Below are positions 13,747 through 20,268 of a stretch of 20,268 nucleotides of DNA, in pieces. Positions within the stretch are counted from its first letter, which is position 1. The number at the start of each line of letters is the position of its first letter. The translations under genes and the position numbers were made by a program. The notes beneath the pieces were generated by a model. It searched no databases. It saw only the letters and a list, made by a program, of their open reading frames with translations, and was not told the DNA's origin. Source of the stretch: a virus; IMG/VR virus record IMGVR_UViG_3300031687_000133, positions 1 to 20,268 of that record. One strand, 5' to 3'.

Positions 13747-13999
13747 ATCCTTGTGGAGTATTAGTTGTTTTTATATCTATACCATCTAATAAAGCTCTTT
13801 CTTCTTCAATTCTTTTTAATATTTCAAACGCATCAAATATAGCAAGCTTTTTTGTAGCTGCTGCATTTTTTAATCTGTCTGCTGCTAATTCATCTTCTGA
13901 ATTAAATTTTATAATATCTTCTTTAGCAACTTTAATTAACTGAACAACAGCTTGTTCTCCTGCACTAATAATTTGCAACTTAATACTTTTAATATCCAT
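13724..13999 (-). CDS. Small helical protein, terminase small subunit candidate
   Basis: The product has 91 residues and is almost wholly helical by composition (QAVVQLIKVAKEDIIKFNSE, DRLKNAAATKKLAIFDAFEI, LKRIEEERALLDG) with a basic end (GFAESRSK). It overlaps the terminase large subunit gene by 23 bases and the preceding gene by 11. No helix-turn-helix is clear. The position directly before terL and the small helical build fit a terminase small subunit, which recognises phage DNA, but it is shorter than most and could be another packaging accessory. It alone in the window ends in TAG; all other visible stops are TAA. Confidence 0.6.
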   Translation of the reverse strand: MDIKSIKLQIISAGEQAVVQLIKVAKEDIIKFNSEDELAADRLKNAAATKKLAIFDAFEILKRIEEERALLDGIDIKTTNTPQGFAESRSK

Positions 14000-14561
14000 T
14001 TAGTTTAAGAGTTATATTATTAGTAAACATTCTGTATAATACTTCGCCATCTACATTAAACTCATATTCTGTTTCTGGTTGATATGATATTTCATCACCA
14101 ACTTTTAAACCTAGCTTATCTAATTGAGAATTAGAATATTTAAGAGTACCCATTAAAGGCTCTATAATTCCTGATTTTTTTATAAAACTATCTTTAGCAC
14201 TTGCAGGTTTTACAAAACAATATTTGTGATAACCTTTCCATACGTCATTTCTTTTAAATAAAAAAAACTGGTCTGGATCAATAAAAAACAAATCGTCTTT
14301 AAAAAAACTTTTCCCACTTTTTCTTCTGCCATACATGTCATTATAAAACTTAAACACATTATGATGTACCAATAAAGTGTCTCCTACTTTAACCTCTCCT
14401 GTATAGTCTATAGGAACTTCTATAACTTTAGCATATCTATTAGAAACCGTATGGTCTTCCTCTGACGTACTTGTTATAAAATCTATGTTACCGATTTTTT
14501 TTGTATTACTGTATCTCCTATTGTCTATAGGTTTTACAATAAAAGAATGTGGGGATTTCAT
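13989..14561 (-). CDS. Protein with two GroES-like domains (co-chaperonin candidate)
   Basis: The product has 190 residues. Residues about 6-105 follow the GroES layout: FIVKPIDNRRY, a variable segment, AKVIEVP and then VKVGDTLLVHHNVF, ending in DPDQFFLFKR. Residues about 112-188 repeat it: KYCFVKPASAK, GIIEP, GTLKYSNS, LKVGDEISYQPETEYEFNVD and a closing VLYRMFTNNITLKL. In GroES the VKVGD turn and the final strand pattern sit in the same places. Phage co-chaperonins such as T4 gp31 help the host chaperonin fold the capsid protein, so a capsid-folding role would fit the location ahead of terminase, portal and MCP. I cannot see a clear mobile loop, so partner binding is uncertain. Its start overlaps the previous stop by one base (TAATG). 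Confidence 0.55.
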   Translation of the reverse strand: MKSPHSFIVKPIDNRRYSNTKKIGNIDFITSTSEEDHTVSNRYAKVIEVPIDYTGEVKVGDTLLVHHNVFKFYNDMYGRRKSGKSFFKDDLFFIDPDQFFLFKRNDVWKGYHKYCFVKPASAKDSFIKKSGIIEPLMGTLKYSNSQLDKLGLKVGDEISYQPETEYEFNVDGEVLYRMFTNNITLKLNGY

Positions 14562-15667: not shown

Positions 15668-16456
15668 TTACTCTATACCATTAACAGCTGATGCAGCTGG
15701 AGTATCTTCTCCCTTCAAGTTTACTTGGTTCACTTGCCATACATCAAAAGATGATGCCATAGCTGGTGTAACACCATTTATTGTATTAGCATAACTACTT
15801 ATTTCATATACCAATGTTAATTTAGGCATAAACCCTCCTGAAGTAAAAAAGTATATACCGTTACGAGCATCAAGACTTGATGATGGGCTAGTTTCACTAT
15901 AATCATAATTATAATTAACTAAAGCTACATTTAATTTTTTAGGACTTGATGAATTGTTTATTTTATTTATACCAGTTGCATTTAATTGAAAGTCGTTTTC
16001 TCCTGAATTTTGTGTACCTGAATTCCAAGCGAAGATAGTATCAGACCCTCTAATTGTATCTGAAAATTGATTTTCAAAAGCTGCTGTATCATAATCACCT
16101 GTAGTCAAAGCACTACCTCCATTTGTTCCAAAAGCTCCATTAGATTCAGTCATTACTACTGAATTTACACCAGCGTTAGAAACACCATTAACTGTAAAAG
16201 TTCCTGCACTTACTACTGCTCCAGCTGGTAAAGAACTACAATCAAAATAAAAGAATGATCTTGAGCAATTAAAAGAAGTATTACCACCTCTATCAGTAGC
16301 TCTTCTTGCACGAACAGGTGTTGATTGAGTAACACTTGAACTTACAGTAGTTCCTGAACTTGCATTAATTACATCATCCCAGTCTTCTGATGCGCCACCG
16401 TTTTTTACTATTGACCCTTGTCTGTTTGATGTTACGTTTATAGTTATTTCAGCCAT
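15668..16456 (-). CDS. Beta-sandwich (DNRLRE-like) structural protein
   Basis: The product has 262 residues, rich in Ser, Asn, Gly and Thr. Residues 67-87 (SFFYFDCSSLPAGAVVSAGT and following F) match the core of DNRLRE-type and related carbohydrate-binding beta-sandwich domains, whose pattern is an aromatic-rich strand, D-x-S-x-LP-x-GA and a second strand. The remainder alternates short strands with Ser/Asn/Gly loops up to LTLVYEISSY at about 215. A short tail follows (INGVTPAMASSFDVWQVNQV). There is no signal peptide. Next to a long fibre and a methyltransferase, it is probably exposed on the virion and may bind glycans, but no catalytic residues are recognisable. Some marine phages carry such proteins in their fibre clusters. 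Confidence 0.5.
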   Translation of the reverse strand: MAEITINVTSNRQGSIVKNGGASEDWDDVINASSGTTVSSSVTQSTPVRARRATDRGGNTSFNCSRSFFYFDCSSLPAGAVVSAGTFTVNGVSNAGVNSVVMTESNGAFGTNGGSALTTGDYDTAAFENQFSDTIRGSDTIFAWNSGTQNSGENDFQLNATGINKINNSSSPKKLNVALVNYNYDYSETSPSSSLDARNGIYFFTSGGFMPKLTLVYEISSYANTINGVTPAMASSFDVWQVNQVNLKGEDTPAASAVNGIE

Positions 16457-16458
16457 TG

Positions 16459-17025
16459 TTAATATTGTTTTTTTGGTAAATAATATTCTGTATGATTGAA
16501 ATACAAATTAGAGTCTGGAGTTACTGGTATAACTTCGTAACTATCAGCTTCTATTTTTAATTGATTATCTTCTGTAAGATAACTATTCCACCAAGTAGCT
16601 AGCCCATTTTTTTTCATTAAATAAGGCATTACTTGTTTTAAATGTTTTGCGTTTTCATCACCCCATGTATCGTAAAATATCCCATCATATGTTAGTAAAT
16701 GATTTCTTACTTGATACCAATCTCCTAAAACAATATTTACCTTAGGTTTATTTTCTGCCCATGCTAAAGCTTTGTTATATATTTCTGGATGGTACTCTAC
16801 AATTGTATGTGAATTAATATTATTAGCTTGTATAAAATCTGCGCTAATTCCCATTCCAAAACCTATTTCTAAAATATCTCCTCCTTTAGAACAAATATAG
16901 TCAGCATGAGCTTTCATAATTGTTTGTTCCCAATCCATCATTATATAATGAGTTTCTTCTGTTTCTTGGTCTATATAATATATAGAATTTTCAGTAAATG
17001 TAAGATTACGATTTATAAATTCCAT
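16459..17025 (-). CDS. SAM-dependent methyltransferase, guanidinoacetate N-methyltransferase-like
   Basis: The product has 188 residues. The SAM-binding motif is GGDILEIGFGMGISADFIQ (about 48-66), followed by the motif II acid in TIVEYHPEIY (E77) and GDWYQV (101-106). DGIFYDTWGDE (114-124) has D119 where guanidinoacetate methyltransferase has its guanidino-binding aspartate, and MDWEQTIMKAHADY has E33 where the enzyme has its second substrate acid. The central fold therefore follows the GAMT/RMT2 family closely; by comparison with human GAMT, the N-terminal cap before the WE motif is shorter, as is the C-terminus. The physiological substrate is not known: guanidinoacetate, an arginine side chain or another guanidine is possible. 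It lies between the long fibre and a beta-sandwich protein and is likely co-transcribed with late genes. SAM-methyltransferase assignment is firm, GAMT-like affinity likely. Confidence 0.85.
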   Translation of the reverse strand: MEFINRNLTFTENSIYYIDQETEETHYIMMDWEQTIMKAHADYICSKGGDILEIGFGMGISADFIQANNINSHTIVEYHPEIYNKALAWAENKPKVNIVLGDWYQVRNHLLTYDGIFYDTWGDENAKHLKQVMPYLMKKNGLATWWNSYLTEDNQLKIEADSYEVIPVTPDSNLYFNHTEYYLPKKQY

Positions 17026-17035
17026 TATTTATATT

Positions 17036-20000
17036 TTATGGATTTGCTATTACAACCCAAGTCTTATCTGGGTCAAAATAAAATATTGTACTACTGTATG
17101 CATATCCAACTATTCTTGCATATCCAGATGTAGGGACTGTTGTTGTTATGTTTCCACTTGTCGTTAAGTATGCAGCTATACCGTTACTTGTAACTGATTG
17201 CGCTCCATTAACTAAACCTTGAACAATCATTCCAACAGAACCTGATGTTCCAGTTCCTTTAGCCATAGCTATTAATCTATTATAAGCATTAGTTGGCGTT
17301 GCAAGTGTCCATCCACTTCCTGTCCAGTAATATATTTTACCACCTGTCACTGAAGAACCTCCAGTAAATAATGTAAATCCATTACCATTGTTATTTGCTA
17401 AACCTACATCTAATCCTATAGGCTTAAATGTAATTATTCCTGAGTCTTTTATAGTGGCTACAGCAACCTCTCCTCCTACACCAGCTACAGAAGTATTTGC
17501 TCTTAAATCAATTTCCCCATTAGCTGCTCTGTTTTGAAGAACTACTCTATTTGAGTTTTCAAAAGTTAAAGCTGTTTTATATCCTCCTGAAGTGTCTTTA
17601 TATAATATTCCGTCTCCTGCTCCACCAGATGTAGCATTAAAACGTATATTATTATCCCCCATGTCAATATTACCAGTCATTGTACCACCTGCTAGTGGTA
17701 AAAAACTTGCTTGTGCTGAAGTAATATAATTTGAATCATTAGTCCATTGACTAATATTACCTGACTTGTTAGTAAAAGTTTCTGTACTACTTGGAGTTGT
17801 AGTTCCTTGTGGATTAGAAAATGAAGTAGTAAGTGTACTACCGCTTTGCTGTGATAATGTTAATGTTATAGTTGATGATCCTGAATCAGAAAATCCTGTT
17901 ATACTTCTTGTGTAACCAGTTTCCCATTGTACTGAATTAGTAGCTCCGTTGGCACTTTGTATATTTCCATCAACAAATAATGTTCCATCTATTACTAATT
18001 CCGAACCATCCCATGTAAGGTCTGCATCACCTTCTAAGGAAGATGTGCCTGTCCAAATAGCTAACCTATTATTAACTCCTGATCCAGTAACTGAACCACT
18101 ACCAGTACCTGCTCCTATAAGTGATCTGATTTCTGCTGCTGTTACACCTGAAGCTAATGTTGGTGAACCTCCTCCACTAAATATCCCTGGTTCTGCAAAA
18201 GATGTAAAACCTGAAGGGTTAGTATTGTTATATGGAGTAAATCCTAATGCACCTGTTACATTAGCACTTGATAAAGACAATGAGCCTCCTAATGTTAAAT
18301 CTCCTGTACCTGTTACTGTTCCTGTTAATGTAAGTCCACTTACCGTTCCTGTTCCACTTACTGACGTTACACCTGCGCTTGAACTTGTTCCTGCTCCAAT
18401 TAAATTTCTAACTTCTACAGCTGAAATATTTGAGTTTAATGATGGTGTAGAACCATTTGATAATATTGCTGGTGTACCTGAATCTGTGACCTTACCATTA
18501 TTAGTTACAATATTTGCAGCTTGAGTAGATGTAATACCAACCTTCCCATTGTTAGTTGTAATGTTAGATGCTTGAGTACTTGTTATTCCTACTTTAGCAT
18601 TGTTAGTTGTAATGTTTGAAGCTTGAGTACTTGTAATACCTACCTTGGCAGTATTTGCAGTTATAGCTGATGCTTGACCTCCACTAATCGTTGTAGTATT
18701 TCCAGCCATTGCTGTAGTAGAAGTTGTTCCAATAACTAAATTAGAAGTACCACTACCTGTTCCTGCGCCAATTAAATTCCTTACTTCTACAGCACTTATA
18801 TTAGTATTTAAACTCGGTGTAGAACCATTACTTAGTATAGCTGGAGTACCTGTATCATTTACAACTCCTAAATTACTTCTTGCTCCTGAAGCTGTGCTTG
18901 AACCTGTTCCTCCGTTAACAACAGCCAAGTCTGTTCCAGACCAATCTGAATTACTAATAGAAAGTGAACCTCCTAATGTTAAATTACCACTACTTGTTAC
19001 AGTACCTGAAAGAGTAATTCCATTAACAGAGCCTGTAGTTCCAACACTCGTTACAGTTCCTTGTGGAATGCTAAAGCTTGTAGTTAAAGTACCACCGTCT
19101 TGTTGTGTTAATGTAAGTGTTTTAGAACTAGAACCTGAATTACCAAATCCTGTTACCATATTATCATATGCAGAATTTGATTCTAATGAACTACCTCCTG
19201 ACCAAGTTACTGTACCACCAACAGTTAAAGCATTTGAACCTCCATTAAATGTTAATCCTGCATCACTTGTTATATTCGAATTACTATTCCAAAATGCTAC
19301 TCTAGTACTTGAACCAGAACCTGTAACATTTCCTACTTGTGAATTATCTATTTTTGTCCACGTTGTATTAGCAAATACTGCCCAATCTCCTATTGCCCAA
19401 TCTGTTATTCCATCTAAGTTTGTGCTACCAGCAACTGATACTATATAGTAATCACCTGACGTTCCAACACCACTTGATAAAGAAGGACTGTTTGTAGAAG
19501 CATTCCATGTGCCTTCAAACTGTAATACTCCTGTAAGAGCTGAGTTTATAGCTGTTTGTATTTGCGCTCCTGTAGCTAAATTAGATGACGAACTATTTAC
19601 AGTTCCTACAATTGCATTTATAACTGGAGTAGTTCCTCCAGATGAACTTATTCTATTTGCAGTTCCACCTACAGATGTAACTCCAGAACTTGAGCTTGTT
19701 CCTGCGCCAATTAACGTACGCATTTCTAAAGCACTTATATTAGTATTTAAACTTGGAGCAGAACCATTTGATAATACCGCAGGTAAACCTGTATCTGTAA
19801 CCTTAGCATTGTTTGTTGTTATATTACTTGCTTGAGTACTGGAAATTCCTACCTTGGCATTGTTTGTTGTTATATTACTCGCTTGCGTACCAGTAATAGT
19901 TGTTGTATTACCAGCTTTCGCTGTAGTTGAAGTTGTCCCAATAACTAAACTTGATGTACCTGCTCCTATAAGTGATCTTACTTCAGAACCTGAAATACCG

Positions 20001-20268
20001 CTATTTAAACTTGGTGTTGAACCGTTAGATAATATAGCTGGAACACCTTGTAAAGAAGCTGAAGTTATATATCCAGCACCATTTGTTATTTGGTTATTAT
20101 TAATAGCAAAAGTTACTGCACCAAGTCCTTGTCTGTTTAAGGTTACTGTTCCTCCTGATATACTTCCACTTGTTACATAATTATTTGTATTGGTATCTGT
20201 AGAAGTTATAGTTAAAACATCTCCAACAACAGAAGTAGAAACATTAGTTCCACCTAAAATTGATAAAG
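17036..20268 (-). CDS. Long repetitive tail/head fibre protein (N-terminus missing)
   Basis: The frame is open from the window edge to the TAA at 17036, giving 1076 residues; the true start is outside. An ATG at 19723 is internal, since upstream codons continue the same repeat (SNGSAPSLNTNISALEMRTL). The protein is Gly/Ser/Thr-rich. A module like SNGSTPSLNTNISAVEVRNL ending in IGAGT occurs five times, and a 17-residue unit (KVGITSTQASNITTNNA) occurs in tandem. VVNGGTGSSTASGARSNLGV resembles the phage fibre repeat of PF03406. The C-terminal part (KPIGLDVGLANNNGNGFTLF, GGKIYYWTGSGWTLATPTNA, ending YFDPDKTWVVIANP) looks like a compact trimer-capping domain. It is probably a shaft of beta-structured repeats ending in a host-contact head. 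It ends ten bases before the methyltransferase gene. Confidence 0.85.
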   Translation of the reverse strand, partial: LSILGGTNVSTSVVGDVLTITSTDTNTNNYVTSGSISGGTVTLNRQGLGAVTFAINNNQITNGAGYITSASLQGVPAILSNGSTPSLNSGISGSEVRSLIGAGTSSLVIGTTSTTAKAGNTTTITGTQASNITTNNAKVGISSTQASNITTNNAKVTDTGLPAVLSNGSAPSLNTNISALEMRTLIGAGTSSSSGVTSVGGTANRISSSGGTTPVINAIVGTVNSSSSNLATGAQIQTAINSALTGVLQFEGTWNASTNSPSLSSGVGTSGDYYIVSVAGSTNLDGITDWAIGDWAVFANTTWTKIDNSQVGNVTGSGSSTRVAFWNSNSNITSDAGLTFNGGSNALTVGGTVTWSGGSSLESNSAYDNMVTGFGNSGSSSKTLTLTQQDGGTLTTSFSIPQGTVTSVGTTGSVNGITLSGTVTSSGNLTLGGSLSISNSDWSGTDLAVVNGGTGSSTASGARSNLGVVNDTGTPAILSNGSTPSLNTNISAVEVRNLIGAGTGSGTSNLVIGTTSTTAMAGNTTTISGGQASAITANTAKVGITSTQASNITTNNAKVGITSTQASNITTNNGKVGITSTQAANIVTNNGKVTDSGTPAILSNGSTPSLNSNISAVEVRNLIGAGTSSSAGVTSVSGTGTVSGLTLTGTVTGTGDLTLGGSLSLSSANVTGALGFTPYNNTNPSGFTSFAEPGIFSGGGSPTLASGVTAAEIRSLIGAGTGSGSVTGSGVNNRLAIWTGTSSLEGDADLTWDGSELVIDGTLFVDGNIQSANGATNSVQWETGYTRSITGFSDSGSSTITLTLSQQSGSTLTTSFSNPQGTTTPSSTETFTNKSGNISQWTNDSNYITSAQASFLPLAGGTMTGNIDMGDNNIRFNATSGGAGDGILYKDTSGGYKTALTFENSNRVVLQNRAANGEIDLRANTSVAGVGGEVAVATIKDSGIITFKPIGLDVGLANNNGNGFTLFTGGSSVTGGKIYYWTGSGWTLATPTNAYNRLIAMAKGTGTSGSVGMIVQGLVNGAQSVTSNGIAAYLTTSGNITTTVPTSGYARIVGYAYSSTIFYFDPDKTWVVIANP
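18491..18660 (-). repeat. 51-bp tandem coding repeats in the fibre gene
   Basis: Three to four units of 51 bases (17 codons) are recognisable by the recurring CATTGTTAGTTGTAAT and CTTGAGTA strings on the plus strand. Units are in frame and differ mostly at synonymous sites, indicating selection on the protein repeat and scope for recombination. Confidence 0.85.
19803..19905 (-). repeat. Second block of 51-bp tandem repeats in the fibre gene
   Basis: Two units 51 bases apart (GCATTGTTTGTTGTTATATT on the plus strand at 19806 and 19857) encode the same 17-residue motif as the block at 18491-18660, about 1.2 kb away. The stretch between the blocks carries copies of the larger IGAGT module, so the fibre has likely grown by duplication. 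Confidence 0.8.

Follow-up and report, generated by a model that had tools for sequence, protein, structure and literature searches.

The window analysed here covers positions 1 to 20,268 of the IMG/VR virus record IMGVR_UViG_3300031687_000133, and all coordinates are those of this whole stretch. The gene of interest is located on the minus strand (16459..17025, with its ATG start at the 17025 end), and its open reading frame, homology and structure model indicate a SAM-dependent methyltransferase of 188 amino acids with the fold of guanidinoacetate methyltransferase (GAMT). Ten bases upstream lies a long repetitive fibre-like gene (17036..20266, minus strand) that runs off the end of the window. 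Its C-terminal domain (17039..17335, minus strand; ..YARIVGY..IFYFDPDKTWV..) is also found in other phages, both with and without the methyltransferase. On the other side is the gene for a protein of 262 amino acids, called DN (15668..16456, minus strand), which is predicted to form a CBM-like beta-sandwich and which we propose as the substrate of the enzyme. An earlier sequence-only reading of this DNA had already remarked on the fibre neighbourhood, and the same fibre-module context is present in relatives.

The terminase of the window shares 72% identity with its counterpart in an environmental podovirus and 44% with the one in Elemovirus. By this measure the phage is a relative of these flavobacterial phages, which are crAss-like. 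Just upstream of the terminase genes, a protein of 190 amino acids (13989-14561) has a match (E 4e-21) to phrog_13932, a family of GroES-like phage co-chaperonins. Our search of phage records gave no match to the methyltransferase in the environmental podovirus or in Elemovirus, and the annotation of both shows other genes at the place of the module. In another carrier (L005), some genes resemble those that encode the tail sheath and tail tube in contractile-tailed phages. Because both this carrier and the crAss-like-related phage of the window have the module, it moves between phage groups. The host group is hinted at by a phage contig that carries the complete fibre-enzyme-DN module and was binned in a Flavobacteriales MAG (NAT55; L167).

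The 188-residue protein is a GAMT-fold methyltransferase by both sequence and fold. When compared with PDB chains by phmmer, it produces strong matches to GAMT entries only (1p1b, 1khh, 1xcj and 3orh; E 3e-12 to 4.5e-12), and a profile built from three relatives improves the GAMT E value to 6e-21. The AF2 model is of high confidence (pLDDT 93.1, pTM 0.90), and Foldseek ranks the GAMT structures 3orh, 1xcj and 1khh first among PDB entries (E 3e-12 to 1e-10, 25-27% identity). Every GAMT entry listed ranks ahead of the spermidine synthases (best E 3.1e-12 versus 3.7e-8), which show only 10-14% identity, and the spermidine synthase family was rejected on that ground. Because no PRMT model (type I-III) is present among the Pfam or NCBIfam matches at E values up to 1 and the enzyme has only 188 residues, we do not assign it the catalytic core and beta-barrel of a PRMT. 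There are no matches above the cut-offs in Pfam, NCBIfam or PHROGs, only weak sub-threshold ones, and thus routine annotation misses this enzyme family. The GAMT-like assignment made from the sequence alone therefore stands after comparison with GAMT, PRMT and spermidine synthase families. As far as fold ranking and alignment can show, the enzyme does not belong to another methyltransferase family with its key acids outside the active site, which had been named as the outcome that would overturn the idea.

Besides the fold and the best sequence match, the likeness to GAMT (1xcj, 1p1b, 3orh) extends to the GFGM SAM loop and to the two acids that hold the guanidino group. The two enzymes differ in length (236 residues in GAMT versus 188 here) and in a short motif that reads TYCN in GAMT and TWWN in the phage enzyme. 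In the phmmer alignment, W32-E33 of the query stand opposite W44-E45 of GAMT, and Y118-D119-T120 opposite the YDT that includes D134 (rat numbering), the acid that accepts the proton in the GAMT mechanism (PMC12471008). E33 (codon 16927..16929, minus strand) is present in all 120 aligned phage enzymes of our first set, and in 157 of 157 distinct enzymes when 37 later ones are included. D119 (codon 16669..16671, minus strand) is conserved in 114 of 119 aligned first-set enzymes and in every one of the 37 later distinct enzymes. Within the SAM-binding loop (residues 55-58; 16852..16863, minus strand), G55, G57 and M58 each vary in at most one of 120 aligned enzymes. The conservation that had been supposed for both acids and for the loop thus extends across the family.

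Among enzymes linked to DN, the only changes at D119 are D119N substitutions in two loci (L155 and L234). The other D119N changes occur in three degenerate copies that have no recognisable DN (L117 4872-5510, L118 1165-1803 and L119 4866-5504). These copies also have E77 changed to I and an altered SAM loop, and they are located near a fibre gene with the common C-terminus. Possibly they represent an enzyme that has turned into a structural factor.

Chromosomal bacterial homologues show a different pattern, with both acids replaced together in 21 of 22 (E to Q or L, D to H). The phage enzymes, unlike these homologues, retain both acids, as a guanidino substrate would require. The bacterial proteins (L169-L189, L168, L173, L178) are about 262 amino acids long and come from Flavobacteriaceae and relatives, and a chromosomal homologue from Micromonospora (L171) has kept both acids. 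The same GAMT-like domain also occurs inside bacterial proteins of 704-2993 amino acids that resemble peptide synthetases.

There are at least 410 IMG/VR viral stretches that encode relatives of the enzyme, and they derive from uncultured aquatic phages. By comparison, a search of 50,697 phage records yielded one match, in a 634-kb megaphage, and no DN was found in named phage records. Two copies of the megaphage type (L006 11974-12558 and L476 2475-3044) are located behind a fibre-like gene and have no recognisable DN.

DN, at about 210-260 amino acids, is encoded directly downstream of the enzyme for 153 of 158 distinct enzymes, and one other has too little flanking sequence to tell. This total comprises 117 of 121 in the first set, which includes the one with insufficient flank, and 36 of 37 further distinct enzymes from a later scan. 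There are 103 first-set pairs (of 117) that also follow a fibre-like gene with the common C-terminal domain. Among the 36 later loci, 32 have an upstream gene without this domain, and the enzyme and DN are still paired there. Since the upstream gene varies while DN stays, the enzyme and DN constitute the constant pair. Furthermore, enzyme divergence tracks DN divergence (rho 0.32, partial 0.31; the largest value among 999 permutations was 0.22), whereas it does not track the equally close fibre C-terminus (rho 0.09, partial 0.03). Some loci have the fibre C-terminus or DN but no enzyme, which permits a comparison of each with and without its neighbour.

This comparison points to one residue of DN. 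Located 8-10 residues before an invariant structural Arg is a motif, for example GRGGG, that carries Arg in enzyme-adjacent DN proteins with two exceptions. In the window this is R56 (codon 16289..16291, minus strand), which is our proposed methylation site and lies in the turn D55-R56-G57-G58-N59 between strands 43-54 and 60-72. Wherever the enzyme is intact, with E33 and D119, the motif residue is Arg, and this holds for 151 of 151 DN proteins (115 of 115 in the first set and 36 of 36 later). The 36 later pairs were fetched after the rule had been formed, and all have E33, D119 and the motif Arg. Among 44 DN proteins without the enzyme, a set in which the Lys members come partly from a Lys-biased query, 37 have Lys at this position and 7 have Arg. 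Their records are mostly fragments, and the 14 that were searched in full contain no copy of the enzyme. Perhaps the seven with Arg are recent enzyme losses. The two exceptions with Lys beside an enzyme are the near-identical L155 and L234, the same loci whose enzymes are D119N, so that the Arg co-varies with D119 as well as with the presence of the enzyme.

No other DN column is as strongly associated with enzyme presence (mutual information 0.465, with the next column at 0.285). Pooled over distinct sequences, the Arg:Lys ratio is 151:0 with an intact enzyme and 7:39 without one (Fisher p 2e-34, a value that ignores relatedness). There are only 3-4 changes from Arg to Lys on the DN tree, and the likelihood model estimates such changes only where no active enzyme is present. 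A tree-based test of dependent versus independent evolution gives a likelihood ratio of 32.6 (p 1.4e-6), which one large clade can drive, and an independent-pairs test finds 1-2 concordant and 0 discordant pairs, too few to reach significance. The association between the enzyme and the DN Arg is therefore strong, and its independence from ancestry is not proven. Two other arginines were considered and rejected as the enzyme-linked site. The one considered first, in the C-terminal domain of the fibre, never varies, whether or not the locus has the enzyme. The same is true for R66 of DN (codon 16259..16261, minus strand; R-S-F-F-Y-F-D in the window, RxFFxFD in general), which is invariant with and without the methyltransferase and is taken as structural.

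The DN proteins are very divergent, with a mean column identity of 29%. The model of the window's DN has a pLDDT of 86 and a disordered tail, and in it the hairpin region that carries R56 at its predicted turn is confidently placed (block mean pLDDT 95). The best matches in a fold search are a chondroitin-sulfate-binding CBM (8wab, E 5.8e-6) followed by the CBM96/DNRLRE structure 7vbo (E 8.9e-5), with moderate TM values (TMq 0.38-0.47). Weak matches to Pfam CBM96 occur in 9 of 72 DN proteins (best E 1.2e-4), the window's DN has no Pfam match, and a DN profile run against PDB sequences produced chance-like matches only, mostly to antibody chains. In CBM96, Lys and Arg residues of a shallow groove bind the acidic glycan alginate (PMC9971899). 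A fair guess from the modelled fold is that DN might be an adhesin for an acidic surface glycan, and it is the position of its gene that suggests a location in the virion.

We consider the best explanation, with a probability of roughly 0.68, to be that the enzyme is a phage-encoded guanidino N-methyltransferase derived from GAMT and that its substrate is the Arg of the neighbouring DN protein. SAM would be held in the GFGM/E77 site, and the Arg at the DN hairpin tip (R56 in the window) would have its guanidinium bound between E33 and D119. D119 would then take a proton, as D134 does in GAMT, and a guanidino nitrogen of the Arg would be methylated, presumably ahead of assembly or while it takes place. 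At the hairpin tip, the added methyl groups would alter hydrogen bonding and bulk while the charge stays. The product would be a virion adhesin with methyl-arginine on an exposed loop, and this residue might tune the grip on an acidic host-surface glycan or the assembly of DN on the fibre. Lys may be a stable unmethylated replacement once the enzyme has been lost. We rate at somewhat better than even odds the broader proposal that this is a widespread phage module, wherein a dedicated GAMT-derived enzyme methylates one exposed Arg of its partner adhesin. Under this proposal, phages would encode their own system for methylating arginine in the virion, and the target Arg would persist for as long as the enzyme remains intact but could disappear once the enzyme is lost.

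The sequences suggest methylation of one exposed adhesin Arg rather than the making of creatine. In the latter case, the gene would be an auxiliary metabolic gene whose product turns guanidinoacetate into creatine in the infected cell. The nearest solved relatives are indeed true GAMTs, both acids are kept, and a survey has proposed this role for Arctic Ocean virus genes annotated as GAMT. In that survey, GAMT (K00542) is found in nine Arctic virus populations, is the most virus-enriched metabolic gene (85.4-fold relative to microbial homologues) and is read as creatine synthesis in low oxygen, and the passages considered mention no adhesin partner (PMC11360552). The survey's GAMT genes probably belong to the enzyme family described here. 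However, the gene is located in a fibre module, and creatine synthesis gives no reason for its near-constant pairing with DN or for the co-variation with a DN residue. In addition, the amidinotransferase that makes guanidinoacetate (PF02274) is absent from 20 large enzyme-bearing viral records, whereas three control genomes matched. A search for the creatine kinase family (PF00217) was silent on the records and on its control genomes alike. We regard creatine synthesis as very improbable. The sequence-only reading had left the target as either a virion protein or a host small molecule. The near-constant DN pairing and the lack of an amidinotransferase in the 20 records disfavour the small molecule, and the virion protein is favoured, with Arg56 of DN as the candidate.

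Two further explanations were weighed. The enzyme might indeed methylate protein arginine but act mainly elsewhere, on the upstream fibre or on another virion or host protein, with the DN Arg kept for another reason linked to gene order. The fibre C-terminus does have an invariant Arg (VRxxGY), and the DN-less megaphage copies would fit such a target. Yet this fibre Arg is just as invariant without the enzyme, the fibre C-terminus fails to follow enzyme divergence, and the enzyme occurs behind varied fibre C-termini while being nearly always in front of DN, all of which make this explanation unlikely. Less probable again, though slightly ahead of creatine synthesis, is a non-catalytic assembly factor, in which a protein of methyltransferase fold would help to fold or mount DN or the fibre in the manner of phage fibre chaperones. 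Such chaperones are typically encoded between fibre and adhesin genes, an example being the shared fibre-plus-chaperone module described in PMC10579305. In addition, the degenerate copies that have lost D119 and E77 persist beside the fibre. A pure chaperone need not keep the SAM loop, E33 and D119 near-invariant, and the coincidence of D119N with loss of the DN Arg also argues against this role.

Methylation of the DN Arg would have partial parallels in known systems. The phage enzyme differs from GAMT in its fibre-module context, its co-varying partner protein and, judging from these sequences, a probable protein substrate. In yeast, RMT2 methylates the delta nitrogen of protein arginine and has a C-terminal domain that resembles GAMT. 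It would set a precedent for a domain of this kind acting on protein arginine, and the phage enzyme differs in having no room for an extra N-terminal domain. The same fold family also includes UniProt A0A8D9CBY1, 'Putative guanidinoacetate methyltransferase [uncultured marine phage]' (BFVD E 3.8e-20, TMq 0.90, 41% identity). Methyl-Arg and methyl-Lys have been reported on structural proteins, including a putative tail fibre, of phages of the marine host Cellulophaga (PMC13288928). Those phages are said to encode no known methyltransferases, with host enzymes assumed to act, whereas here the enzyme is encoded by the phage.

Our literature search, whose coverage is incomplete, found no paper describing the enzyme-DN module, and what is new here is the partner protein DN, the candidate site and the co-variation. 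If the proposal is true, phages have an enzyme of their own for methylating protein arginine, and its target can be named as one site on what is probably a host-recognition protein. This would also alter the reading of viral GAMT, which ranks as the most virus-enriched metabolic gene in the ocean survey (PMC11360552). The claim is specific, concerns a widespread module and is easily tested.

Some loci show other arrangements of the module. In L096 the methyltransferase frame is split in two (887-1171 and 1263-1451) while the downstream DN keeps its Arg, which reflects either recent decay or a sequencing error. In L120-L123, L126, L135, L140, L152 and L153, the common fibre C-terminus is followed by unrelated genes encoding proteins of about 312-316 amino acids. 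The slot behind the fibre therefore looks like an exchangeable tip cassette.
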